Part shown: piece after piece, positions 1-12,945 of the stretch
Layout: every line of letters begins with the position of its first letter
Position numbering within the stretch: the stretch's first letter is position 1
NCBI GenBank assembly: GCA_027035575.1
Contig: JALVUQ010000052.1
Location: forward strand, 1-41,915
DNA: 41,915 nt
Source: Desulfurellales bacterium
GTDB taxonomy: Bacteria; Campylobacterota_A; Desulfurellia; Desulfurellales; Hippeaceae
Reading direction: 5' to 3'
Made by a program: the position numbers and the translations under genes
Notes under the pieces: generated by a model
What the model was told of the DNA's origin: nothing
What the model saw: only the letters and a program-made list of their open reading frames with translations
Database searches by the model: none

Positions 1-112
1 ATTGTGTAAAAATCAAATCGTTCATTTGTTTTTCCTCCTTTGAAGGGTTATTTTTTTCTCAAAGAGGGGTTATAACATATAACCCCTCTTTCCTTCAAAG
101 GGGTGACACAAT
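1..112. repeat. Nested inverted repeat upstream of the helicase-Tat gene
   Basis: Three concentric pairs of arms are visible. The core is a perfect 13-bp inverted repeat, AAAGAGGGGTTAT (61-73) and ATAACCCCTCTTT (79-91), around a 5-nt loop. Outside it CCTTTGAAGG (37-46) pairs with CCTTCAAAGG (92-101), and ATTGTGT (1-7) pairs with ACACAAT (106-112). A second partial copy of the core arm (AGGGTTAT, 44-51) could compete for the same partner. No T-run follows the core on either strand, so an ordinary intrinsic terminator is unlikely. It could be a mobile-element end, a recombination site or an RNA switch. The left arm starts at the window edge, so the structure may extend further. Confidence 0.6.
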
Positions 113-174
113 TTATTTTACACTACCAATATGGCTACGCTTGAACAAATCCACAGAAAAAGGCGGGTAAACAT

Positions 175-2919
175 ATGAATTCGTTTTACAAAAAAGCGAT
201 AGAGGCTTTGGAATGTAATTTAAAAGGAAGAGATGCGTTCGCAAGTAAAGGTATGGTAAAAGACATTGCAGATGAGTATGCTCAGCTTGCATCTCAATGG
301 CAAAACGGAGCGTTTGAATTAAGAGACAAGCAGCTTCTTTTTACCTATGAGTGCATATCAAGCACACTAAACCCAAACAAAGCACCCGTTGCTCTAAGCC
401 TTGCCTGCGGAGAGGGGAAGCAGGAGGGTTTTGCCGTTGCCATCAAACTCTCCTACAAGTTTCTAAAACAAAAAAAGAAAACCGCCAAACTCTTTTTTAT
501 TACCGCAACAACCGATTTGATGGAACAGATGAAAAATTCACTCCCTTTAAAAAACCTGCCCTATGTATATAGAGTCGGAAAAGATATAAGTTATAAGGAT
601 GCGAAGCAAGAAGGCATATACCTGTGCGACTTTGCAACATACCTGAAACTCTCACTTCTTCAAAAAAAGGGCGCATCCGTTAAGCTGTTTAAGAATCTTG
701 ACAGGATTTTTGCAGACGAGTTTCACGCCCTCCTATCCTCATCAAAACATATAATATCGAATGAGCCGAATGTAAACTACCACAATGCCGAAAAGAAAAG
801 AAAATACCTCTTAAAGTTTCTTGCATACAAAAGGATAATGAAAGATGTGGTCTCCCTTCAAGCGGAATTCCCAAAAGCCATAGCACACTCAAGAAAAAGA
901 AATCACGCTACGTTCAACCCTTATCGTTTAACAAAAGACGGTGTGGTTTTGCAAAGATACCTCTATAAAAAATACTTAAACACACAAGACGACAACCCGC
1001 TCAAAGCCCTCGGCATCGCCTCTTATTTTGAATTCCTTGCGCTGCTTGACAAAACAGCCGATGCCGTATCAAAGCAGCCAGGCAAAGACTACTACCTGTT
1101 CAAGGACAACGACATCATCACAGATTACTGCACAGCCCAGAGATTCACAGGCAAACCTATGAAAAACACGGTATTTTTGGACAAAGAATTTGCAACACTC
1201 GTTATGCTTAAACATACAAACGATTTCACCAAAGATGTGTATAAAAAAGAGTTTATGCTTCTTTCAAGAATCTACCTATCCGAAACCTTATATGAAATCT
1301 CACCGATTGAGGCGATATTGATGCACAATCCGAGCAACTTCACCGTTGCCTCGGCTACGCTTAAAGGCGTATCGAAACAGCTCGACTACCTAAACTTTAA
1401 AACCCTCTTTCTACAGGCAGAACCCGTATTGAGTTTGGATGATAAAAATGTAAGCATAACGCAGGCATCAAAAGAGAACACGCCCTTGGACATAGTCAAA
1501 AACCTTAACTTAAAAAACTCAACGTTTGAGGCAGTAGCAATAACAGCCCAAAGCTCAAAAACTCTCAGTGATTTGGCAGACCTTCTGGAAAAAGAAAACC
1601 TATACGGCTATGAGGTAATAAGGCTCTATCGAAACCCGATAAACCCGAATGACGAGCTGTTTGAAGATGAGATAGTAAACCTTCAGGAACAGATATACAA
1701 AGAACCGAATAAAAAACGGATAATACTTATTCAAGGGCTCGGCGAAGGCTCAAACATATTCAAAACCACCCCGAACAACAACTATTCGGCAAAGCTGATT
1801 AAACTTGACATAGATGCCATAGACAAGGTTACACACACAAGATACAGAATAGGCGCAAAAGGCAGGGCAAACGGAACGTTCTGCCACAGGTTTTCAACAA
1901 ACTTGACACACTCGTCTAATCTGAAACTTGAAGAGGTCGAGATATTAAATAAAAGTAAAAACAAAGCTAAAACGCTTATTGAGATACAGACAAAAATACT
2001 TGAGGATATGGACGATAGTGCCGTAGCCGTGAATATAAGCTCAAACCTTACCTCAGACAATAAATCCTCAAGAAGAAACTTCTTAAAAAAACTTGGATTA
2101 GGACTCGCAGCAACAGCAGCAGCTCCGGCAATAATTCCATCTCTAACAAAAGATGCTGAAGCATATTATAGCGTTTATAATTACAAAAATCTCCCGCCTG
2201 GAATAAAAAAATGTAGAGATAAAGAAATAATAAACGCATATGTTATGTATAGAGCATCAGAAGGTTTGAATAATACTGTTTTTTATAAAGGAGTTGATGT
2301 CGTAAGAATATTTTGTGGAATTATGAGAATTTCCAATACCCAATACTTTCCAATAGAATTCGGAGAAGTTAGAAGATCAACCCCATTCATTGAACCGGCA
2401 TATTGGTATCTCTGTGCTTGGGCAGATATGCCACACTTTCCTATTATGGACGAACTTGAAAAGAAAAATCCTAATTTAACAAATTTTGCTAGAGGTATCT
2501 ATGATTATTTTGATCAGTGGGTTTATTACAATAAAGGATATTATGGTATGAAAACAGAAGACCATCTATTATTGACGATTTTTGATGCCGCTGGTTATAA
2601 CAAAGAAAAAAAATTAGACGAGTATTATAAAGCCAATTTCAATGGAAAGAAAGAAATTATAATAGAAACCGCAGATGTTTTCAAAAATATGCATATCAAT
2701 CCAAAACCAGATAAAATAAACGATAATTACGACAAAGCACTAACAGCACAATGGGCATCATATTGGCTAACAAGACATTATAATAGAACTTATGGTTACA
2801 ATGGAAAAATGACAGTATTGATTTGGTCTGAATTGGAACAAGATGGTTTTAGAAAAATGAATAATGGAAAAATTGACTTGAGAATCAGAGGACCACCAAA
2901 TTATATAGAAAAATTTTAA
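175..2919 (+). CDS. SecA-like helicase fused in frame to an internal Tat signal and an unknown exported-type domain
   Basis: The 914-residue product has two halves. Residues about 1-600 resemble the SecA/superfamily-2 motor: a Walker A-like GEGKQ (79-83, with Gln where Thr is usual), a DEFH box (181-184), a GLGEGSN segment (521-527) and a motif VI-like R558-IGAKGRANG. Residues 632-639 then read SRRNFLKK, a consensus twin-arginine motif. A hydrophobic stretch follows (640-657), with a likely signal-peptidase site after AEA (661-663). The remaining roughly 250 residues are rich in Tyr, Trp and Asn and match nothing I recognise. The start is ATG 175 with an AGGCGG ribosome site about 8 nt upstream. 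An in-frame ATG at 2008 could produce a 303-residue Tat precursor by itself. Base composition falls after about 2150. The helicase assignment is from motifs only; the fused architecture is directly visible as one open frame. Confidence 0.75.
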   Translation: MNSFYKKAIEALECNLKGRDAFASKGMVKDIADEYAQLASQWQNGAFELRDKQLLFTYECISSTLNPNKAPVALSLACGEGKQEGFAVAIKLSYKFLKQKKKTAKLFFITATTDLMEQMKNSLPLKNLPYVYRVGKDISYKDAKQEGIYLCDFATYLKLSLLQKKGASVKLFKNLDRIFADEFHALLSSSKHIISNEPNVNYHNAEKKRKYLLKFLAYKRIMKDVVSLQAEFPKAIAHSRKRNHATFNPYRLTKDGVVLQRYLYKKYLNTQDDNPLKALGIASYFEFLALLDKTADAVSKQPGKDYYLFKDNDIITDYCTAQRFTGKPMKNTVFLDKEFATLVMLKHTNDFTKDVYKKEFMLLSRIYLSETLYEISPIEAILMHNPSNFTVASATLKGVSKQLDYLNFKTLFLQAEPVLSLDDKNVSITQASKENTPLDIVKNLNLKNSTFEAVAITAQSSKTLSDLADLLEKENLYGYEVIRLYRNPINPNDELFEDEIVNLQEQIYKEPNKKRIILIQGLGEGSNIFKTTPNNNYSAKLIKLDIDAIDKVTHTRYRIGAKGRANGTFCHRFSTNLTHSSNLKLEEVEILNKSKNKAKTLIEIQTKILEDMDDSAVAVNISSNLTSDNKSSRRNFLKKLGLGLAATAAAPAIIPSLTKDAEAYYSVYNYKNLPPGIKKCRDKEIINAYVMYRASEGLNNTVFYKGVDVVRIFCGIMRISNTQYFPIEFGEVRRSTPFIEPAYWYLCAWADMPHFPIMDELEKKNPNLTNFARGIYDYFDQWVYYNKGYYGMKTEDHLLLTIFDAAGYNKEKKLDEYYKANFNGKKEIIIETADVFKNMHINPKPDKINDNYDKALTAQWASYWLTRHYNRTYGYNGKMTVLIWSELEQDGFRKMNNGKIDLRIRGPPNYIEKF

Positions 2920-3025: not shown

Positions 3026-3042
3026 GGGGTGTTTCACACCCC
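3026..3042. repeat. Short GC hairpin between convergent genes
   Basis: GGGGTGT (3026-3032) and ACACCCC (3036-3042) form a perfect 7-bp stem with a TTC loop. It lies between the convergent genes ending at 2919 and 3199. It is followed by C-rich rather than T-rich sequence, so any terminator role would be weak. The rest of 2920-3198 is AT-rich and contains the direct repeat listed at 3061; no gene was seen there. Confidence 0.45.
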
Positions 3043-3060
3043 CCCTTCCTATTTCCTGCA

Positions 3061-3104
3061 CCTTGTATGTTACTCCCATCAACCCATCATTTGCGAGGTG
3101 CAAA
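3061..3104. repeat. Direct repeat, copy 1 of 2
   Basis: These 44 bases match 4594-4637 at 42 positions in the same orientation. The repeat ends in the small hairpin TTTGC-GAGGT-GCAAA (3090-3104). The two copies lie on either side of the AT-rich gene at 3199-4269 and are about 1.5 kb apart, like scars around an inserted cassette. Confidence 0.85.
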
Positions 3105-3198
3105 CAATGCATAAAGTTTATACTTGAGCTTGGGACTATGGAATATTTATATCGCTTATTCCAAATATTTCTTAAATAATTCGTTATTCCGAGATTGT

Positions 3199-4269
3199 TT
3201 ATTTTTTCAGTAATTTTTCTAATTCTTTAATTCTTTGCTTTGTGTAATTATTAATTTCAGATGGAAAATTAATATCGGATGTCATTTCACTATAGTCTCC
3301 TTTTTCCCACTGGCTATACACTTTTTTATATCCATTAATATGAAATGATAATCTATGAGTGAGATCTTTCATTTTTTTATCTTCCACAAGATATCCTTTT
3401 TCTAAAATTAACTTTTCCATTCTTTCATGATAAGGTTTAAATACACTCAACATATAATTTATCCACCTCTCTTGTTTTTTAGATGATATATTTAAAAGAA
3501 AATACGAATTTTTATCTTGACTATGCAGAATAAATATTTGATTACTTAAAGACATGTTATTATTTTTCAAATAAATAGGGGCTATATACTTTATCATTTC
3601 AACATCACTGATTTTATGATCGAAAGATTTCTTAAAAGATAGCAAAGGATGTATAGGAGGTAATATTTTCCCATCATTGTTCGTTATCACAGATTCGAAA
3701 GTAATGTCTGGAAAGATCACATTTATGCCATAAATTGTGGGATCATCCCCTTTGGGTTGTTCTAAAGTAATATGTGGAAAGAATACCTCTATTTTATAAA
3801 GAAATTTTCCTGTTTTTAAAGAATCCTTTAAGAGGGTTTTTTTATATAAAAAAAATTGAGAATAAGCTCCTTCTCCAATAAAATTGTTATCCTCGTCTAA
3901 TATATTTATTTTTCCGTCAAAGTTAATTTTTTTATACTTGTCATGTATTAATTTAACTGTAGTATCTTTTATATTAAGTTTATATTTTTTATGTTTTTGT
4001 AGTTTTACGTTTATATGTTGTTTATCAACTTTATAAGTAATCCAATAACTACCATAAATCTTTTTAGTCAGAAACATACATTGATAGTTTGATTCTGTTA
4101 ATAATCTATCCAATGGGATGTAGAAATCATTCAACTTTTCTTGAATCAACTGAGTGTTTGCTTCTTTTTGTTTGAAAATATTATCGATTATATTGGTTAT
4201 AAAAGTTCTAGGGATATAGAGTATAAATGCTACAAACACAACAAAGATTGCAATTTCTAATTGATTCAA
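3199..4269 (-). CDS. Membrane-anchored protein of unknown function
   Basis: This is a 356-residue protein that I do not recognise. Residues about 5-26 form one hydrophobic helix. A long hydrophilic, Lys- and Ile-rich domain follows, suggesting a single-pass inner-membrane anchor. Two similar strands, FFPHITLE and IFPDITFE, lie about 20 residues apart and may be an internal repeat. No catalytic motif is apparent. The start is TTG at 4269, supported by GGGAG (4276-4280 on the complementary strand) with 6-nt spacing; the next in-frame Met is about 60 residues in, after the membrane helix. Composition is extreme: 10 G/C among the 60 bases at 3961-4020. Together with the flanking direct repeats this suggests horizontal acquisition. 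It stands alone, convergent with the helicase fusion gene. Confidence 0.7.
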   Translation of the reverse strand: MNQLEIAIFVVFVAFILYIPRTFITNIIDNIFKQKEANTQLIQEKLNDFYIPLDRLLTESNYQCMFLTKKIYGSYWITYKVDKQHINVKLQKHKKYKLNIKDTTVKLIHDKYKKINFDGKINILDEDNNFIGEGAYSQFFLYKKTLLKDSLKTGKFLYKIEVFFPHITLEQPKGDDPTIYGINVIFPDITFESVITNNDGKILPPIHPLLSFKKSFDHKISDVEMIKYIAPIYLKNNNMSLSNQIFILHSQDKNSYFLLNISSKKQERWINYMLSVFKPYHERMEKLILEKGYLVEDKKMKDLTHRLSFHINGYKKVYSQWEKGDYSEMTSDINFPSEINNYTKQRIKELEKLLKK

Positions 4270-4593
4270 GTTTAACTCCCGTACATAAAGTCATAGGTCA
4301 CTTACTGACAAAACACATAGTCAAATGTAGCAGCCGAATAGCAGTTAAGTTGAGCACCTTGTTAGATTTCAATCGAACCAAAATGAAATCTATATTCCAC
4401 TTGGCTGATAGTCGGCTCATTAATGCATTTTGCAGCAAGACTACCTATATTGCCTCAGTTTGTCAAGACAGTTTTTCTAATTTCTTATTCCCTCCCTTTA
4501 TCGTAATATAAAATTCAACACTCTTTATTGGGCAGCATCCATTTCATTTAATTCCTGGGTGCATATTTTTTCATAAGAGGTTAATTTTTCATA

Positions 4594-4637
4594 CCTTATA
4601 TGTTACTCCCATCAATCCATCATTTGCGAGGTGCAAA
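4594..4637. repeat. Direct repeat, copy 2 of 2
   Basis: This is the second copy of the 44-bp repeat at 3061-3104. It differs at two positions, G to A near the start and C to T in the middle, and ends in the same TTTGC-GAGGT-GCAAA hairpin. It lies upstream of the orphan membrane-protein gene, while copy 1 lies downstream of it. Confidence 0.85.
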
Positions 4638-4748
4638 GTTTGGGAGAAATTTATCCCCACAGCCACTAATCACTAATCACTATTCACTAACCACAAGTTA
4701 CCAACCACCAACTACCGCTCGCCCATTCGACAATTTAACCCTTAACCA

Positions 4749-4775
4749 TTTTTCACACCTACGAAGTGTGAAAAA
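4749..4775. repeat. Hairpin repeat, copy 1
   Basis: TTTTTCACAC (4749-4758) and GTGTGAAAAA (4766-4775) make a perfect 10-bp stem around the loop CTACGAA. The run of A after it gives T on the other strand, so it would read as a terminator for minus-strand transcripts. The same core recurs at 5035-5056. Confidence 0.6.
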
Positions 4776-4795
4776 AAGGGCGGCGGATTAAAACC

Positions 4796-4868
4796 TCAAA
4801 CAACGGGTTATGCTTAAAGCATTTAAAGAAAATGAATGACATTGCAAGAAGTATAATCCGTTGTTTGA
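4796..4868. repeat. 16-bp inverted repeat enclosing 41 nt
   Basis: The arms at 4796-4811 and 4853-4868 (core CAAACAACGG and CCGTTGTTTG) are complementary at 15 of 16 positions, and the odd position is a G-T pair. The interior contains a second palindrome, ATGCTT-A-AAGCAT (4810-4822). The 73-bp unit has no coding potential. It could be a miniature element or a structured RNA. Confidence 0.55.
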
Positions 4869-5034
4869 TAAAACCGGCAGCAATAGTTTTTATCGATTGA
4901 TTTTAAGATTTTTCCTCCACCCGTTCCCATTTCTTTTACCTGCGAGATGAAAAGTTTTGGTGTGGATTCAGATAATCTCATAAACCGATTATCCTCTATT
5001 CACTATTTACTAATCACCAACCACCACTCATCCG

Positions 5035-5056
5035 TTTTTCACACCTGCGAAGTGTG
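5035..5056. repeat. Hairpin repeat, copy 2
   Basis: TTTTTCACACCTGCGAAGTGTG repeats the hairpin at 4749 with one loop change (A to G). The stem is shorter here, CACAC (5040-5044) with GTGTG (5052-5056), because the 3' A-run is interrupted. Confidence 0.5.
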
Positions 5057-5185
5057 CAATTTGAGGTGGCGTCATGCGATTTACCATCCGCCATAACTAA
5101 TCATCGACCACTGTTTATCTATTCTAAATAATTTACTCTTATTAAAATTTGCAAAAACAGGCTTTTTTTATACAATTGAACCCCA

Positions 5186-5959
5186 ATGAAAGAACTCGTT
5201 GATGTTCAGTCGCAAAAGGACACAAGAAACATATCGATAGATAAAGTCGGCGTAAAGGGAGTCAGGTATCCGATTTCCCTTTTGGATAAGGCAAAAAAGA
5301 GACAGCATACAATTGCAAATATAAATATGTATGTTTTGCTTCCAAGCGATTTTAAAGGCACGCATATGAGCAGATTTATCGAAATACTCAACGAAAATAA
5401 AGACTGCATAGATATAAAAAATATTGACAACATACTTTCTCAGATGAGAGAAAAATTAAATGCCGAAAAAGCCTATATGGAGCTTAAATTTCCGTATTTT
5501 ATAGAAAAAAAAGCTCCTGTCAGCAAAATAGAGTCTTTAATGAGTTACGATTGCAGGGTTGAGGCAATCGGAGACGGGGTTAATAATACAACAATTTTGA
5601 GCGTTATTGTACCTATTACAAGCCTTTGTCCCTGTTCAAAAGAGATTAGTGATTACGGGGCTCATAATCAAAGGGGCAGGGCTACAATATCGGTCGAATT
5701 TAGAGAGATGGTTTGGATAGAAGAGTTGGTAGGTGTGGCTGAAGAGTCGGCAAGCTGCGAAATATATGCTTTATTAAAGAGACCGGATGAAAAGTTTGTA
5801 ACGGAAAAAGCCTACGATAATCCTGTTTTTGTCGAGGATATAGCCAGAAATATTGCGTTAAGGTTAAAGGATGACAACAGAATAAAGCACTACTGGATAG
5901 AGGTTGAAAACTTTGAAAGCATTCATAATCACAACGCTTATGCGTTTATAGAAAGATAA
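5186..5959 (+). CDS. folE2: GTP cyclohydrolase I, FolE2 (type IB)
   Basis: The enzyme converts GTP to 7,8-dihydroneopterin triphosphate, the entry step for folate and often for queuosine. The 257-residue length is normal for FolE2. Family signatures are present: a KGTHMSRF segment (the conserved THMSR-type region, about residues 57-64), the Cys-containing CPCSKEIS segment (about 149-156) that carries the catalytic Cys, the GAHNQR motif just after it, and a conserved HNHNAYA near the C-terminus. FolE2 is the less metal-selective alternative to zinc-dependent FolE. The ATG at 5186 has only a weak ribosome site. The gene is followed 24 nt later by the CoA-transferase pair in the same direction, so it probably heads a three-gene operon, although the functions have no obvious link. 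Confidence 0.92.
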   Translation: MKELVDVQSQKDTRNISIDKVGVKGVRYPISLLDKAKKRQHTIANINMYVLLPSDFKGTHMSRFIEILNENKDCIDIKNIDNILSQMREKLNAEKAYMELKFPYFIEKKAPVSKIESLMSYDCRVEAIGDGVNNTTILSVIVPITSLCPCSKEISDYGAHNQRGRATISVEFREMVWIEELVGVAEESASCEIYALLKRPDEKFVTEKAYDNPVFVEDIARNIALRLKDDNRIKHYWIEVENFESIHNHNAYAFIER

Positions 5960-5983
5960 TTTTATAAAAAAGGAGTTTACGGT

Positions 5984-6964
5984 ATGGATACGATAGGGGA
6001 GCTGCTTGGCTACGAAGACCCTGACAAAATGAGGGGATTTTTTAGAAAGAAATCAAAAAAGCTGGAAAACAAGATAAAAAAACTGCCGGATGCCGTTTCT
6101 GAGTTTGTTGCAGAGAGCGACTATATGGCGATAGGCGGTTTCGGTTTGGTAAGAATACCTACAGCCTTTCTGCACGAGGTTATAAAACAGCAGAAAAAGG
6201 TTGCCACCTGTGCTTTTTTTACTTCAAATTACGATACGGATTTGGTTTTGATAAACGGTATGATGAAAAGTGTCGATATGTCGTACGGCATAGCCCTTGA
6301 GGCTTTGGGCAGCCCCAAAGTTTTAAGGAAGTATTTTGAAAACGGAGGGATTAAGGTTACCGAATGGTCGAACGGCGCTTTGGCTTGGAGATATAAGGCT
6401 GCCGCTATGGGTCTGTCGTTTCTTCCCGTTCGCTCTATGCTTGGAACCGATACCGAGAGGTACAGCGCAGCAAAAGAAATAATATGCCCATTTAGCGGCA
6501 AAAAGTACCTTGCAGTACCTGCACTTTATCCTGATATTGCCGTAATACACGTCCACGAAGCCGATATGTACGGCAATGCCCACATAAAAGGAGTTCTCGT
6601 TGCGGATGTTGATATTGCAAAGGCTGCTAAAAAGGTGATTATAACAACAGAAAGGATGGTGGATACCGAGTATTTCAGAAACAATCCCCAAAACACGACA
6701 ATTCCTTTTTATCTTGTTGATGCCGTCGTCGAGATTCCATACGGCAGCTATCCTGCGGAGATGCCCTACGAATACCTTTTTGATATAGATTACTTTAAAA
6801 GATTTTTACAGGCAGCAGAATCCGACGAGACCTTTGATAGGTTTATAAAAGAAAACATTTACGAGTGTAAGGATTTTTATGAATTCATATCTTTAAACGG
6901 CGGAGTGGAAAGAATAAAAGAATTAAGAAACCTTGAGTTGGGATTAAAAGGGAGTTCATTATGA
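5984..6964 (+). CDS. Class I CoA-transferase, alpha subunit (glutaconate CoA-transferase type)
   Basis: This 326-residue protein has the family-I CoA-transferase alpha fold signature. It includes IGGFGLVRIPTAFLHE near residue 50, a repeated glycine-rich strand pattern, and the conserved VHEADMYGNAHIKG segment (about 190-203). The closest recognisable relatives are GctA of glutaconate CoA-transferase and the related IpdA steroid-ring hydrolase subunit; sequence reading cannot separate these. The start has a good ribosome site (GGAG). It overlaps the beta-subunit gene by an ATGA junction, so the two are translationally coupled, as expected for a heteromer. The likely role is moving CoA between organic acids in the cytoplasm during anaerobic acid catabolism. 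The substrate is unknown. Confidence 0.8.
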   Translation: MDTIGELLGYEDPDKMRGFFRKKSKKLENKIKKLPDAVSEFVAESDYMAIGGFGLVRIPTAFLHEVIKQQKKVATCAFFTSNYDTDLVLINGMMKSVDMSYGIALEALGSPKVLRKYFENGGIKVTEWSNGALAWRYKAAAMGLSFLPVRSMLGTDTERYSAAKEIICPFSGKKYLAVPALYPDIAVIHVHEADMYGNAHIKGVLVADVDIAKAAKKVIITTERMVDTEYFRNNPQNTTIPFYLVDAVVEIPYGSYPAEMPYEYLFDIDYFKRFLQAAESDETFDRFIKENIYECKDFYEFISLNGGVERIKELRNLELGLKGSSL

Positions 6965-7743
6965 ATGAAAAGTATTATAACGAGATGGAGTTAATGATAT
7001 GCGCGGCAGCGAGAATTTTCGAAGACGGTGTTTCCGTATCCGTTGGAACCGGTGTTCCCTGTGCTGCGGTAATGTTATCCCAAAAGCTGTATGCTCCTAA
7101 CATACTTATACTTTTTGAAGCCGGCGGAATTGCTCCGCTTTTGCCTTCTATGCCAATATCCGTTGGAGATAAGAATACTATGTATAAGGCTCTGCAAACA
7201 ACCTCGGTTTCAGATGCTATGGAAATGAATCAAAGAGGGCTTGTTGACTACTGTTTCTTGGGCGGTGCTCAAATTGATATGTACGGAAACTTGAATTCAA
7301 CAATAATAGGCTCTCACGACAATCCTAAGGTTAGATTTCCGGGAAGCGGAGGAGCCAACGATTTTGCATCTTCAGCCTGGAGGACAATAATTGTTTCTCC
7401 ACACTCAAGCAGACGATTTACAAATAATATCGATTTTATAACAACTCCGGGATATTTAAAAGGACCAAACGCAAGGGAGGAAGCCGGACTGCCTCAAGGT
7501 ACAGGACCTTACAAAATTATAACCAATCTTGCCGTTATGAATTTTGATAACGATGAGAGGAGAATGGCTCTTGAATCGGTTCATCCCGGTGTTAGTATTG
7601 ATGATGTCGTAAAAAATACAGGTTTTGAGCTGTTGATAGACGAACACATCAAACAGACCGAGCCGCCCGGTGAAGACGAATTGAAGATTTTAAGAAACGA
7701 AGTTGACCCATACAGGGTTGTCATAGGAAAGAAAGCGCAGTAA
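6961..7743 (+). CDS. Class I CoA-transferase, beta subunit (glutaconate CoA-transferase type)
   Basis: The 260-residue protein is the partner of the preceding alpha subunit. Residue Glu53 in the LFEAGGIAP segment falls where GctB-type enzymes carry the Glu that forms the acyl-CoA thioester intermediate, so the subunit looks catalytically competent as a transferase. A GSGGANDFASSAW segment (about 121-133) is also typical of the family. Start and stop codons of the two subunits overlap by 4 bases. The gene ends 27 bases before the convergent end of the TRAP permease gene, with no obvious terminator in between. An IpdB-like hydrolase is the main alternative. Confidence 0.8.
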   Translation: MNEKYYNEMELMICAAARIFEDGVSVSVGTGVPCAAVMLSQKLYAPNILILFEAGGIAPLLPSMPISVGDKNTMYKALQTTSVSDAMEMNQRGLVDYCFLGGAQIDMYGNLNSTIIGSHDNPKVRFPGSGGANDFASSAWRTIIVSPHSSRRFTNNIDFITTPGYLKGPNAREEAGLPQGTGPYKIITNLAVMNFDNDERRMALESVHPGVSIDDVVKNTGFELLIDEHIKQTEPPGEDELKILRNEVDPYRVVIGKKAQ

Positions 7744-7770
7744 AGGTTTGCTTGCTGACAAAGAGCTTAA

Positions 7771-9024
7771 CTATAAAAGCAAGGTCGTTATAGGTTGGAA
7801 AAAGGATATTATCAACAAGTCGATTATCATAACAAGAAGAAAAGGAAAGACTGCTTTTGAGAGTTTGACTATGCTGCTTTCCGCTATGGTAGAGGAAACA
7901 ATAAGGCAAATACCAAGCGGCGGCGTTAACATTCCTATGGCAAGGTTTGTAACAATCATTACACCGCTTGTTATGGGATTTATTCCAACTTGAGATAAAA
8001 TCGGTGCCACAACGGGCACAAACAGAACAAGTGATGCCGTTGTCTCAACAAATGTACCCATAATAAGCAAAAACAGGTTGACCATTAAAATAAGGAGCAG
8101 CTTATCGTTTGAAAAACTTAAAAATACCTTTTGGAGCATCACTTGAATGTTGTTCATAGAAAGATACCAGGAAAAAACCGTTGCTACGGCAATGATTATT
8201 AAAATAACAGAACTTGTTACGATGCTTTCTATGGCGGATTTGTACAGATTTTTAGGATTAATCTCTTTATAAACAAATATCCCGACAACAAGCGAATAAA
8301 AAACCGCGCAAGCGGCAGATTCGGTTGCAGTGAATACACCGCCAAGTATCCCGCCTATAACGATAAACGGTGTGCCGAGTGCCCAAATCGAGTCTTTTAA
8401 AGCCTCGATAAACTCTTTAAACTCAAATCGCCTCCTGCTTTTATGTGTATTATCCGCAAATATGACGGCTACAACAGAAAGAGATATACCTATCAACAAA
8501 CCCGGCAAAATGCCTGCTATAAAAAGTTTGCCTATGGATAAACCGGTTATAAAACCGTAGATTATCATAGGTATGCTTGGCGGAATAATAACGCCTATGG
8601 AGCCTCCGCTTGCAACTACCGATGCTGCAAAATCCCTATTGTAACCGCGTTTTATCATAGAAGGAATCAATATTGAACCTATTGCGGCAGTATCTGCTGC
8701 CGCAGAACCGCTGACTCCGGCAAACAGCATACTGGATAAAATAGCTGAAATAGCCAATCCTCCTCGCAAATGACCTACAAGAGATTCGGCTAACCTTACT
8801 ATTCTTCTGGATAATCCACCCTGATCCATCAGATTGCCGGCAAACATAAAAAGAGGAACTGCAAGCAGCATATAGGAATTAAGCCCGCTGAACATTCTTT
8901 GGTCAATCATATAAAGCGGCAGATGGGATTTAATAAATGCAAAAGTTGTTGCCACACCTATGGATAAGGATATTGGAAAAGAAAGCAGTATAAGAATGAT
9001 TAAAAGAAGCAGCAGAAGAATCAT
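7771..9024 (-). CDS. dctM: TRAP transporter large permease, DctM family
   Basis: This 417-residue protein is almost entirely membrane helices, about a dozen, as expected for the TRAP M subunit that carries the sodium-driven transport path. Family features include PLFMFAGNLMDQGG near residue 57, the SGSAAADTAAIGS segment (about 105-117) and the GGSIGVIIPPSIPMIIYG region (about 140-157). It is the last gene of a dctP-dctQ-dctM operon on the minus strand; its ATG overlaps the end of dctQ by 4 bases. TRAP systems import organic acids, especially dicarboxylates, keto acids or sialic acids. The substrate here is not evident. Confidence 0.92.
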   Translation of the reverse strand: MILLLLLLIILILLSFPISLSIGVATTFAFIKSHLPLYMIDQRMFSGLNSYMLLAVPLFMFAGNLMDQGGLSRRIVRLAESLVGHLRGGLAISAILSSMLFAGVSGSAAADTAAIGSILIPSMIKRGYNRDFAASVVASGGSIGVIIPPSIPMIIYGFITGLSIGKLFIAGILPGLLIGISLSVVAVIFADNTHKSRRRFEFKEFIEALKDSIWALGTPFIVIGGILGGVFTATESAACAVFYSLVVGIFVYKEINPKNLYKSAIESIVTSSVILIIIAVATVFSWYLSMNNIQVMLQKVFLSFSNDKLLLILMVNLFLLIMGTFVETTASLVLFVPVVAPILSQVGINPITSGVMIVTNLAIGMLTPPLGICLIVSSTIAESSIVKLSKAVFPFLLVMIIDLLIISFFQPITTLLL

Positions 9025-9509
9025 TTATTACCTGCTATTATGGAAAAAATATTGTTTATTATATGGATAATCCATAAAAGGGAGCTGATAGGAACAGCCG
9101 AAAAAAAGTAGGCGTATGGAATCTCAAGTGTAGCTGTTGTTTGCATTAGAAAAATTGGCATAAGTTTGAAGCTCTCAACAAAAACCAAAAGCCAAAACAG
9201 CAAAAAAAAGAGTTCAATCGTAAAATTTAAAGCCTTTTTGTTTCTGCCTGCTAATTTTTCGATAAAAATATCAATTCCTATATGGGCTTTATGTTTATAG
9301 GCTACGGTAGAACCCAAAAATGAGATAAAAACAAGCAGAATTCTTGATACTTCACCAGACCAGTAGATTGAGTTATTCAAAACGTATCTGTAAAAAACAG
9401 CTGTGACCATCAGGGTTGACAGAGTTAGAAGCAGGAATACAAGAATCGTTTCCGTCAACCTGTTAGCCGTATCGCTTACAAAAGACAAAACCCGTGAGAT
9501 GGTTTTCAT
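9021..9509 (-). CDS. dctQ: TRAP transporter small permease, DctQ family
   Basis: The 162-residue protein has four predicted membrane helices, the normal size and topology for the Q subunit that binds DctM. The segment YWSGEVSRILLVFISFLGS matches the conserved E-x2-R(x)4-F core of the family. It starts immediately after the dctP stop codon (TAGATG junction) and overlaps dctM by 4 bases, so all three subunits are translated in a coupled way. Confidence 0.88.
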   Translation of the reverse strand: MKTISRVLSFVSDTANRLTETILVFLLLTLSTLMVTAVFYRYVLNNSIYWSGEVSRILLVFISFLGSTVAYKHKAHIGIDIFIEKLAGRNKKALNFTIELFFLLFWLLVFVESFKLMPIFLMQTTATLEIPYAYFFSAVPISSLLWIIHIINNIFSIIAGNK

Positions 9510-10478
9510 CTATTCCGTACTTAAAATTTCATCCAAATATTTTCTTGCTATGCCTTTAAATTCACTTTTTAGGGGCATTACTTTAGCTTTGAAAGAAGCA
9601 ATATCAGGGTGTTCGTCAATAATCATACCCTTCTTTTTAAGCTCTTTTAAGAAAAAAGCCACCTGTTTTCTGTTGAGGTTTCTTTCATAAATAGAAGCCT
9701 CTTTTGCAGCTTTATAGAGCAGTTTTTGGTATTTCTTCGGCAGTGTGTCATAAAACTTTTTGCTTCCGACAAATACAAGGGCTGAATATACGTGTCTTGT
9801 TAAGGATAGATACTTTTGAACCTCGTAAAGTTTGTACTGATAGATAACGGCAAGAGGATTTTCTTGCCCGTCTATGACGTGTTCTGCAAGTTGAGTATAT
9901 ATTGGCCACGGCATAGGTGTCGGATTGGCGCCAAGCGCTCTCCAGATTTTTATCTGCAACTGGCTTTTCATAACTCTTATCTTTAAGCCCTTCACATCTT
10001 TAACGCTATGAACGGGACGTACGGAATTCGTTAAATTTCTAAAACCGTTTTCCAAAAAGTGAAACCCAATCAGGTCGGCTTTTTTAAATTGATTTAAAAT
10101 ACCTTGACCTATTTTCCCATCAAGAATCTCATCAACCTGTTTGTAACTGCTGAAAAGAAACGGGAACTCTATTGCTTTAATGGCAGGAACAAATTTATCG
10201 ATTGGTCCTGCCGTAATAACACCCATCTGCAGTGCTCCCATTTGAAGCTGCTGTAAAATACTTGTTTCATTTCCGACAGAGCCCGAATGATGTATAATTA
10301 CTTTAATTTGACCGTTACTCTCTTTTTCCACAATTTGCTTAAATTTCACGGCAGCCTTGTAGTGGAATGTTTTCGGTGTTGTAACTATACCGAGATTTAT
10401 TGTGTAGGTTTTTGAAAAAGCCGTGCCGTTAGAAAATAATATAAAGATTATCAAGACCGACAAAATAGTCTTTTTCAT
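9510..10478 (-). CDS. dctP: TRAP transporter solute-binding protein, DctP family
   Basis: The protein captures the substrate in the periplasm and delivers it to DctQM. I place the start at ATG 10478 because a G-rich ribosome site lies just upstream and it gives a clean signal peptide: MKK, a hydrophobic core, then cleavage near SNGTAFSKT. An extended frame to 10526 exists but would bury the signal. The product is about 322 residues, normal for DctP. The conserved LKIRVM segment, whose Arg usually binds the substrate carboxylate, and the following NPTPMPW region are present. A good promoter lies just upstream (10508-10536). Confidence 0.92.
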   Translation of the reverse strand: MKKTILSVLIIFILFSNGTAFSKTYTINLGIVTTPKTFHYKAAVKFKQIVEKESNGQIKVIIHHSGSVGNETSILQQLQMGALQMGVITAGPIDKFVPAIKAIEFPFLFSSYKQVDEILDGKIGQGILNQFKKADLIGFHFLENGFRNLTNSVRPVHSVKDVKGLKIRVMKSQLQIKIWRALGANPTPMPWPIYTQLAEHVIDGQENPLAVIYQYKLYEVQKYLSLTRHVYSALVFVGSKKFYDTLPKKYQKLLYKAAKEASIYERNLNRKQVAFFLKELKKKGMIIDEHPDIASFKAKVMPLKSEFKGIARKYLDEILSTE

Positions 10479-10507
10479 AACTTCCCCCCTAAAAATTAAT
10501 TTAGAAA

Positions 10508-10536
10508 AATATAGACCAAAGCACAAGTCAAGTCAA
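10508..10536 (-). promoter_or_regulatory. Sigma-70-type promoter for the TRAP operon
   Basis: On the minus strand TTGACT (10536-10531) and TATATT (10513-10508) are separated by 17 nt, about 30 nt upstream of the dctP start. A second TTGACT overlaps it 5 nt downstream, giving a TTGACTTGACTTG direct repeat. Confidence 0.7.
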
Positions 10537-10585
10537 GAAAAGAGGTAAAATTATAATACGTCTGCAATAGCCAACAGATTTATCC

Positions 10586-10613
10586 TTGCACTTACGGTTT
10601 TTTAGACTATAAT
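10586..10613 (+). promoter_or_regulatory. Sigma-70-type promoter for the TauE operon
   Basis: TTGCAC (10586-10591) and a perfect TATAAT (10608-10613) are spaced by 16 nt. The element lies 38 nt upstream of the GTG start at 10652 and diverges from the dctP promoter 50 nt away. Confidence 0.75.
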
Positions 10614-10651
10614 GCAGAGGTGTTTAAAATTGTGTTTATTTAAGGATTAAA

Positions 10652-11452
10652 GTGGAATACGCAGTTGCTTTTCTTGTTGGAATTATCTCAAGCATCGCAG
10701 GGGCTTTGCTCGGTATAGGCGGCGGGATAATAATTGTTCCCGCTCTTGTAATAATATTGAAACTGCCTATGCAAAATGCCATTGCGGTTAGCTTGGCGAC
10801 CATTGTATCGACAAGCATACTGGTTACGTCTAAAAATCTTAAAAATAACCTTATAAATATGGATATAGGCTTGCCTTTGGAACTTTCCACATCCGTCTTT
10901 GCCATAGCTGCAAGTTTTATTGCGGTTTTGATAAATCAAAATGTTTTAAAGGGTGCTTTCGGTGCTTTTTTGTTGTTTACAGCCTATTTTATGTATAAAA
11001 AACCGGAGGTTCAAAACTGTTTTGCAAAGGAAGGCGCTAAGTATTCCTATTTCGACCAGAAAATTAACAAAACGGTTTATTACAATATAGAAAATCCCAA
11101 GGCTGCCATAGCAATATCCTCAGCGGCAGGTTTTTTGTCGGGGCTGCTCGGTATAGGAGGCGGTGTCATTAAGGTTCCGATATTAAACGGGGTTTGCAGG
11201 ATTCCTATGAAGGTTGCAAGCGCCACAAGTTCAATGATGGTCGGCATAACGGCTGCTGCTGCATCCTTTGTCTATTTTAGGCACGGTTATATTATGCCAA
11301 GCCTCGTTCTTTTCACCTCTCTGGGTGCTGTTTTCGGCTCTAAAATTGGTTTGCATATCTCAAAAAATACAAAAAACGAAACGATTAAAAAGGTGTTTGT
11401 GGGTATTTTGATTGTCACGGCACTTGAGATGATTATAAAGGCTGTTTTATGA
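10652..11452 (+). CDS. TauE/SafE family membrane permease (anion or sulfite exporter type)
   Basis: This 266-residue integral membrane protein has the two-fold repeat of the TauE/SafE family. The motif LLGIGGGIIIVPAL (about residues 19-32) recurs as LLGIGGGVIKVPIL in the second half (about 168-181), each followed by helices. Members export sulfite, sulfoacetate or other small anions, or take up sulfur compounds; the substrate here is unknown. The GTG start is supported by AAGGA with 5-nt spacing. The next gene, a DUF1634 protein, overlaps by an ATGA junction and is a common partner of this family. Confidence 0.88.
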   Translation: MEYAVAFLVGIISSIAGALLGIGGGIIIVPALVIILKLPMQNAIAVSLATIVSTSILVTSKNLKNNLINMDIGLPLELSTSVFAIAASFIAVLINQNVLKGAFGAFLLFTAYFMYKKPEVQNCFAKEGAKYSYFDQKINKTVYYNIENPKAAIAISSAAGFLSGLLGIGGGVIKVPILNGVCRIPMKVASATSSMMVGITAAAASFVYFRHGYIMPSLVLFTSLGAVFGSKIGLHISKNTKNETIKKVFVGILIVTALEMIIKAVL

Positions 11453-11700
11453 AGGTTTTATCGGATTTACTGAGATTAAGCTTTTATTCGGCTATGGCTT
11501 TGTTGTTTGTAGGATTTTTACACAGATACCTCAATCTTTATTGTTGTAATTTCAGCCGAATAGGGATTTTACTGCTTCTTTGCATTCCTTTGGCTCTTGT
11601 TTTCTTTCTCGGAGTTTTTTTTGCATATAAAAAAGAGTTTAAAAAAAGCTTTGTTGCTCTTATTCTCCTTGCAGTTTTGATAGGCAATATCTTTCTTTAG
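11449..11700 (+). CDS. DUF1634 small membrane protein
   Basis: The 83-residue protein is predicted to have three membrane helices. Its RIGILLLLCIPLALVF segment fits the short DUF1634 family, typically encoded directly after TauE/SafE permeases and probably an accessory subunit. It overlaps the permease gene by 4 bases. The function has not been established for the family as far as I know. Confidence 0.75.
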   Translation: MKVLSDLLRLSFYSAMALLFVGFLHRYLNLYCCNFSRIGILLLLCIPLALVFFLGVFFAYKKEFKKSFVALILLAVLIGNIFL

Positions 11701-11709
11701 CGTTTGGTT

Positions 11710-12945
11710 ATGAAAAAACTGAAAATAGCGATAGTAGGCGGCGGTGCATCCGGTTTAATTGCAGCTGTTGTTGCAAAAAAGGAGCACACAACGGTTGATT
11801 TATACGAAAAAAATCAGTCTATTGGCAGAAAGATTTTGGCATCTGGAAACGGCAGGTGCAATATATTCAATACATCCGTATCAATTAATGACTATTACGG
11901 TGAGGATATATCTTTTGCCTCTAAAGTGCTGAAAAGATTGGATTTTAATCGATTTAGGGAATTTTGCTTGAATATGGGTTTGCTTCTTGATGTGAAAGAT
12001 GACGGCAGAGTCTATCCTCTGTCTGACGAAGCCAAATCCGTTGTGAATGTTTTTAGGGCGTATCTTGATAAACTTAATGTGAACATATTAACAAACACAC
12101 CGGTTTTAGAAATTGAAAAAACAGACGCTAAATTCACACTTTTTAACGATGACGGTATTCTTGGTGAATACGACAAGGTTTTAATAGCTTCGGGTTTGCT
12201 TGCGGCTCCTCAACTTGGGGCTTCAAAAGACGGAGCGAATATGGCTTTGTCTTTCGGTCATTTACTCAATCCTGTCTATCCGGCTTTGGTTCCTCTTGAG
12301 TTAGACGGCACTCTGTTTAGGCGTATGGAAGGCGTCAAAATGAAGGCTTCAATTGCTCTATACGTTGACAACAAGAAAAAAGGTGAGGTTTTGGGAGATA
12401 TTCTTTTTACCAAATACGGAGTTTCGGGGTTTGCGGTTTTGGATATATCCTCTCAAGCCTCGTTCTACCTTAAAAGCAGTAGAAAGGTTGAGATATCGAT
12501 TAATTTACTTCCGGGCATCGAGAAGCAGTATATAGGAAGCAGGCTTGCCTTTGCTCAAAAAAACCTGAAGGAGTATGATATATTAACGGTTTTATCGGGA
12601 ATGCTGCCTTTAAAGGTTGCAAAGGCTGTGCTTATAAAAATAGGAATTGATGCAAAAGAGACTGTTTCCTCTTTTAACTCTAAATCCATAAAGCAAATTG
12701 TTAATGAAATGTTTAATATGAGATTTGAAGTAACGGCAACACACGGATTTAAATATGCGGAAGCGTGCGGCGGAGGAGTTAAAACCGACGATATTTGTGT
12801 GAATACAATGGAATCAAAGCTTGCTAAAGGTCTCTATTTTGCCGGAGAGGTACTTGATATAGTGGGTGCAAGAGGTGGCTTTAATTTTGCCTTTGCTTTT
12901 GCAAGCGGATATGTTGCAGCATCAAATATGGCATTAAGTACCTAA
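11710..12945 (+). CDS. Flavoprotein of the HI0933/YhiN family (NAD(P)/FAD-dependent oxidoreductase)
   Basis: The roughly 411-residue protein begins with a Rossmann dinucleotide-binding motif, IVGGGASGLIAA, followed by an acidic end of strand 2 (LYEKN). It then has the family signature GRKILASGNGRCN (about residues 40-52) and a C-terminal FAD-binding segment, GLYFAGEVLDIVGARGG. This is the BaiN/HI0933 family, soluble flavoenzymes of largely unknown physiological reaction. The ATG at 11710 is preferred; an in-frame TTG two codons earlier is possible. The gene is 9 nt downstream of the DUF1634 gene and probably in the same operon. It ends close to the convergent ABC permease gene. Confidence 0.88.
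   Translation: MKKLKIAIVGGGASGLIAAVVAKKEHTTVDLYEKNQSIGRKILASGNGRCNIFNTSVSINDYYGEDISFASKVLKRLDFNRFREFCLNMGLLLDVKDDGRVYPLSDEAKSVVNVFRAYLDKLNVNILTNTPVLEIEKTDAKFTLFNDDGILGEYDKVLIASGLLAAPQLGASKDGANMALSFGHLLNPVYPALVPLELDGTLFRRMEGVKMKASIALYVDNKKKGEVLGDILFTKYGVSGFAVLDISSQASFYLKSSRKVEISINLLPGIEKQYIGSRLAFAQKNLKEYDILTVLSGMLPLKVAKAVLIKIGIDAKETVSSFNSKSIKQIVNEMFNMRFEVTATHGFKYAEACGGGVKTDDICVNTMESKLAKGLYFAGEVLDIVGARGGFNFAFAFASGYVAASNMALST

Follow-up and report, generated by a model that had tools for sequence, protein, structure and literature searches.

How did a helicase and a Tat signal come to share one reading frame, and is the result one protein or two? This question is raised by the ORF at positions 175-2919 of the window, by which we mean the whole stretch of DNA that was analysed (41,915 nucleotides, the entire contig C52 of a draft genome of 1.72 Mb in 108 contigs). 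The initial annotation regarded a cytoplasmic motor and a Tat-exported domain in one chain as a contradiction, on the view that Tat signals act at the N-terminus. That objection falls away, because there are precedents for an internal Tat signal: actinobacterial Rieske proteins carry one (PMC4383559, PMC7317946), and a further example cited is E. coli FecR (PMC11533796). During transport the twin arginines remain at the cytoplasmic face, and a covalent link to TatC is tolerated (PMC7317946); a soluble domain in front of the signal is therefore topologically allowed. The features discussed below are the following, with the strand in brackets and the basis of each assignment at the end.

175..2919 (+): probable chimeric ORF, helicase plus Tat signal plus exported-type domain without known family; 914 aa, uninterrupted frame, coding score
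316..780 (+): superfamily 2 (SF2) helicase domain 1, ResIII, residues 48-202; Pfam ResIII, E = 1.1e-7, above the gathering cut-off, and motif positions
1489..2001 (+): putative helicase domain 2 with a helical tail, residues 439-609, with QGLGEGSN and IGAKGRANG; homology to P0002 (L008)
1942..2107 (no strand): compositional junction, given as a 2-unit support interval with best point 2083; GC3 change-point
2008..2010 (+): candidate internal start ATG; GAGG 2 nt upstream
2068..2163 (+): predicted Tat signal, residues 632-663, comprising SRRNFLKK, a hydrophobic stretch, a c-region Lys and AEA; TIGR01409 above cut-off, and sequence
2164..2916 (+): 251-aa domain downstream of the predicted cleavage site, GC3 0.21, of no known family; no match in the databases searched
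3199..4269 (-): orphan ORF of 356 aa, GC3 0.22, grouped with the Tat segment in one low-GC block; composition and segmentation

The reading frame

The ORF runs from ATG to TAA through 914 codons with no internal stop, so the single unbroken frame of 914 aa described earlier is real in the sequence as assembled. When codon scores trained on the 30 other genes of the window are applied, this frame beats the other five nearly throughout, the junction between the helicase and Tat parts included, and its score declines towards the 3' end. The ORF is known from one draft genome and lies near a contig end. A 15-codon ORF (MATLEQIHRKRRVNI) at 132-179 (+) shares ATATGA with the helicase start, an overlap compatible with translational coupling. 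The contig breaks off at its end (window 1-60, minus strand) within a divergent gene whose start shows a strong AGGAGG (ATGAACGATTTGATTTTTACACAAT...), and a perfect 14-bp inverted repeat at 61-91 adjoins this start.

The helicase half

The first half had been labelled SecA-like, and this label has to be given up. Profile searches return ResIII and a weak Pfam match to DEAD, and SecA models are absent even at E = 10. The match of PF04851 (ResIII) to residues 48-202 scores 31.6-35.2 bits against a cut-off of 22.5 (E = 1e-7 to 1e-8, Pfam), and helicase-type motifs follow one another in sequence order: within domain 1 a Walker-A-like CGEGKQ (78-83) and motif II as ADEFHALL (180-187), then VASATL (391-396), QGLGEGSN (520-527) and IGAKGRANG (559-567). 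The Walker-A-like motif has Q at the usual place of T/S, departing from the canonical GxGK[T/S], and ATPase activity of the helicase is uncertain for this reason. Judged by its sequence, residues 48-202 are an SF2-type helicase domain, and we do not claim an active ResIII enzyme.

Residues 366-612, the candidate second RecA-like domain, have no match in Pfam. A single-sequence structure model of the helicase half reached a pLDDT of 33 and was not used for fold searches; in this low-confidence model, residues 450-520 form alternating strands and helices, and the motif-like QGLGEGSN and IGAKGRANG also fall within 366-612. No restriction-modification partner was recognised among the neighbouring ORFs, and a defence-system search gave no match.

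The Tat signal and the segment that follows it

The Tat features reported in the initial annotation are all where it placed them: SRRNFLKK at residues 632-639 (window 2068-2091) and AEA at 661-663; MDDSA is at residue 612. The NCBIfam model TIGR01409 (Tat signal) matches residues 632-651 with 17.1 bits against a cut-off of 16.7, and at E <= 1e-3 this is its sole match in the whole genome. The pattern [STN]RRxF[LI] occurs once in the window, all six frames considered. Directly after the twin-arginine motif, at residue 640, begins the 17-residue stretch of highest hydrophobicity in the 914-aa protein. Thus the sequence features of a Tat substrate, namely a twin-arginine motif, a hydrophobic stretch and AxA, are all present, and residues 632-663 constitute a predicted Tat signal of textbook form. 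TatC is encoded in the same genome, as it is in all 25 genomes of the phylum.

The GAGG noted close to ATG 2008 indeed lies 2 nt upstream of it, a spacing tighter than at most gene starts in the window, with an ordinary pairing energy. The predicted product of this start has 303 residues and a signal of 52, and such a size is usual for Tat. No match to residues 664-914 came from Pfam, NCBIfam, PDB sequences, plasmids, phages or genome contigs, and a single-sequence structure model of them has a pLDDT of 37 and is unusable. Hence, of the proposed Tat signal followed by a cargo domain, the signal in front of the C-terminal part stands, whereas "cargo domain" is an interpretation placed on residues without any match.

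A compositional junction at the Tat signal

At codon 636 (window 2083) GC3 falls from 0.45 to 0.21. The log-likelihood gain of this change-point is 25.4, compared with at most 9.4 in 500 shuffles and at most 3.8 in the 30 other genes of the window. Segmentation of the DNA by raw GC, a separate analysis, puts a break at 2130 and unites the Tat segment with the ORF at 3199-4269 in one low-GC block. Host genes have GC3 values of 0.32-0.44; the helicase half lies above this range and the Tat half below it. Since the GC3 break falls at the Tat signal, two segments of different origin were joined there, and composition is the strongest evidence for the joining of two genes of different origin at this point. 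Of the options that the initial annotation had offered, a fusion of two genes is the one that this sharp change in codon composition directly supports.

Within the window, no significant repeat is seen at the junction, which lies outside any repeat that could account for recombination there; the genome contains no second copy of the Tat side. The ORF at 3199-4269 (-) has a membrane-like segment at its N-terminus, lacks a Pfam match and has no relatives among viral contigs.

Relatives of the two halves

Sequence searches found no relatives of either half elsewhere in the 25 genomes of the phylum. Among about 570 genomes the sole relative is P0002, a protein without a Tat signal from a genome of another phylum (G343). 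Its alignment with our ORF takes in the putative helicase domain 2 and the helical tail and ends near residue 609, just before ATG 2008 (48.5 bits, compared with at most 32.7 in 2000 shuffles); the C-terminus of P0002 differs from that of our ORF and has no Tat signal. A profile search with the helicase and P0002 in two further sets again returned G343 alone. The architecture of helicase plus Tat signal was found in no second genome among the roughly 570 searched, and a homolog in which the Tat part stands separately was found neither in these genomes nor in exact-peptide scans. On the proposed check, whether relatives encode the halves separately, a helicase relative without the Tat signal exists, and these searches gave neither a separate relative of the Tat part nor a homolog extending across the junction. 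Given that no separate homolog came to light, we infer the former independence of the Tat part only from composition and the position of the Tat signal.

Neither half had a relative in scans of viral contigs, genome contigs, plasmids and phages; the contig scans require exact 8-residue matches, and distant relatives would consequently be missed. Two further matches were treated as chance. One is in G002 of the same genus (L002, E = 2.5e-4), with surroundings that by eye resemble an anaerobic ribonucleotide reductase region; the other is in an Olleya phage (46% over 39 aa, E = 2), with genes of unknown function around it and no further similarity to the helicase. PDB matches at E 0.7-0.8 were likewise set aside as chance.

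The genomic setting

The sister species G002 is collinear with the window at 5141-12449 (88% identity), and 4700-4949 is also shared at 78%. In that genome folE2 and htpX lie side by side without any of the DNA from window 1 to about 4700, and miaA is next; in our genome htpX and miaA are on contig C72, beside a different insert of 5.8 kb (the names htpX and miaA were assigned by eye). As the DNA of window 1 to about 4700 is missing at the G002 site and a different insert occupies C72, we regard it as variable DNA; both halves of the ORF lie in this variable region, at a repeat-rich site adjoining folE2. The 5.8-kb insert beside htpX is bracketed by 279-bp direct repeats that are 98.6% identical (L038, 3081-3359 and 8887-9165), and its ORFs appear by eye to encode an ATP-grasp-like, a PLP-decarboxylase-like and a TPR-like protein, and a urea-transporter-like protein with a peptidase-like domain fused to it.

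Repeats at about 3041-3121 and at 4445-5060 flank the region and are dispersed across the genome. They are mosaic and intergenic, with hairpins such as TTTCACACCTACGAAGTGTGAAA, and occur also on contigs C8, C12, C33, C63, C72 and C79 of our genome (G000); there are many copies in this genome and in the sister species, and weak ones in other family members. One copy contains an ORF resembling an IS110-type transposase (L032, 5130-6077, minus strand), inserted between the bases equivalent to window 4626 and 4627, and this insertion suggests the dispersed repeat as an IS110-type target.

Origin of the ORF

We consider it likely that the ORF at 175-2919 is a fusion of two genes from different DNA, joined by recombination or deletion. 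The 5' part, approximately residues 1-610 with GC3 0.45, would derive from a superfamily 2 helicase gene, and the 3' part, from about the Tat signal onward with GC3 0.21, from a gene for a Tat-exported protein. Recombination or deletion may have brought the helicase end and the beginning of the Tat gene into one frame, near or at the Tat gene's own start, with the compositional break as the presumed recombination point. Such a fusion was probably accidental rather than a new export machine. The Tat protein, if it is made at all, is probably made mainly from the internal ATG 2008, and the full-length chain would be incidental. If full-length chains were made, the Tat signal could still work in them, because its twin arginines remain on the cytoplasmic side; signal peptidase would then release the C-terminal part outside while the helicase stays inside. 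The tight spacing at ATG 2008 counts against this reading, and misassembly can also produce a compositional break inside one ORF.

Indeed, an artefact of sequence or assembly, in which separate genes or molecules are joined by a misjoin or by a small indel near the junction, is the alternative that we take most seriously, although we think it rather unlikely. The locus is near a contig end in one draft genome of 108 contigs, a misjoin would likewise yield the break, and a stop in a shifted frame, TGA 2001, falls just before the GAGG and ATG 2008 next to a run of five A; a small indel between 1980 and 2001, real or erroneous, would therefore make two tightly spaced genes. This stop is unremarkable, since stops in the other frames are frequent here, and the frame of the ORF keeps the best coding score across the junction. 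The lack of a significant repeat at the junction within the window, and of a second genomic copy of the Tat side, also argues against a misjoin. The arrangement is then a fusion of two foreign genes in a single genome, or possibly an artefact.

A functional two-domain protein, in which a cytoplasmic helicase is tethered to or delivers a Tat-exported C-terminal domain, would by analogy have the topology of FecR. The frame is fully open, the Tat signal is intact, and natural internal Tat signals exist (PMC4383559, PMC11533796), but we judge this reading improbable: the architecture recurs in no second genome, the halves differ in composition and hence have probably not been together long, AEA predicts a cleavage that would part them, and GEGKQ lacks the usual T/S. 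The idea that the helicase stays attached as a targeting device found no support, and it seems very improbable that a helicase is fixed before an internal cleavable Tat signal as one precursor whose motor and exported protein are parted at the membrane. It is harder still to believe in a single cytoplasmic protein in which a hydrophobic segment resembles a Tat signal by chance. TIGR01409 is barely above its cut-off and residues 664-914 have no family, but the exact S-R-R-x-F-L-K consensus, hydrophobic stretch, basic c-region and AxA stand in the correct order, at the only place in the genome that TIGR01409 recognises (E <= 1e-3), and this segment falls at the compositional junction.

A real and expressed fusion would provide a young natural test of whether Tat tolerates a leading domain of 630 residues, and a helicase would join the short list of soluble domains that precede an internal Tat signal. 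The locus would also illustrate one route to a two-domain gene, through recombination within variable DNA rich in repeats. As an artefact, it would instead be a caution about fusions near contig ends in draft genomes.

Comparison with known systems

The helicase half shares GEGK at the P-loop with SecA, but it has no SecA model match in Pfam (E <= 10) or in NCBIfam, and the best blastp match to E. coli SecA, a single-sequence comparison, is not significant (20.4 bits, E = 0.35); we have accordingly rejected a SecA identity. With ResIII-type superfamily 2 helicases it has in common a domain 1 above the Pfam gathering cut-off and SF2-type motifs in order, and it differs from them in GEGKQ for GxGK[T/S].

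FecR has a soluble cytoplasmic N-terminal domain, then an internal signal, then a C-terminal domain across the membrane. The ORF matches none of the FecR families in Pfam or NCBIfam, and no sigma factor was recognised by eye among its neighbours. In layout, as predicted from sequence alone, it resembles FecR in having a soluble N-terminal domain before an internal Tat-type signal and a C-terminal part beyond it, but here the N-terminal part is a helicase and an AEA cleavage site is present. Actinobacterial Rieske proteins are alike in that other protein segments precede the internal Tat signal; those segments, in contrast, are Sec-inserted membrane helices, and the Rieske signal is uncleaved.
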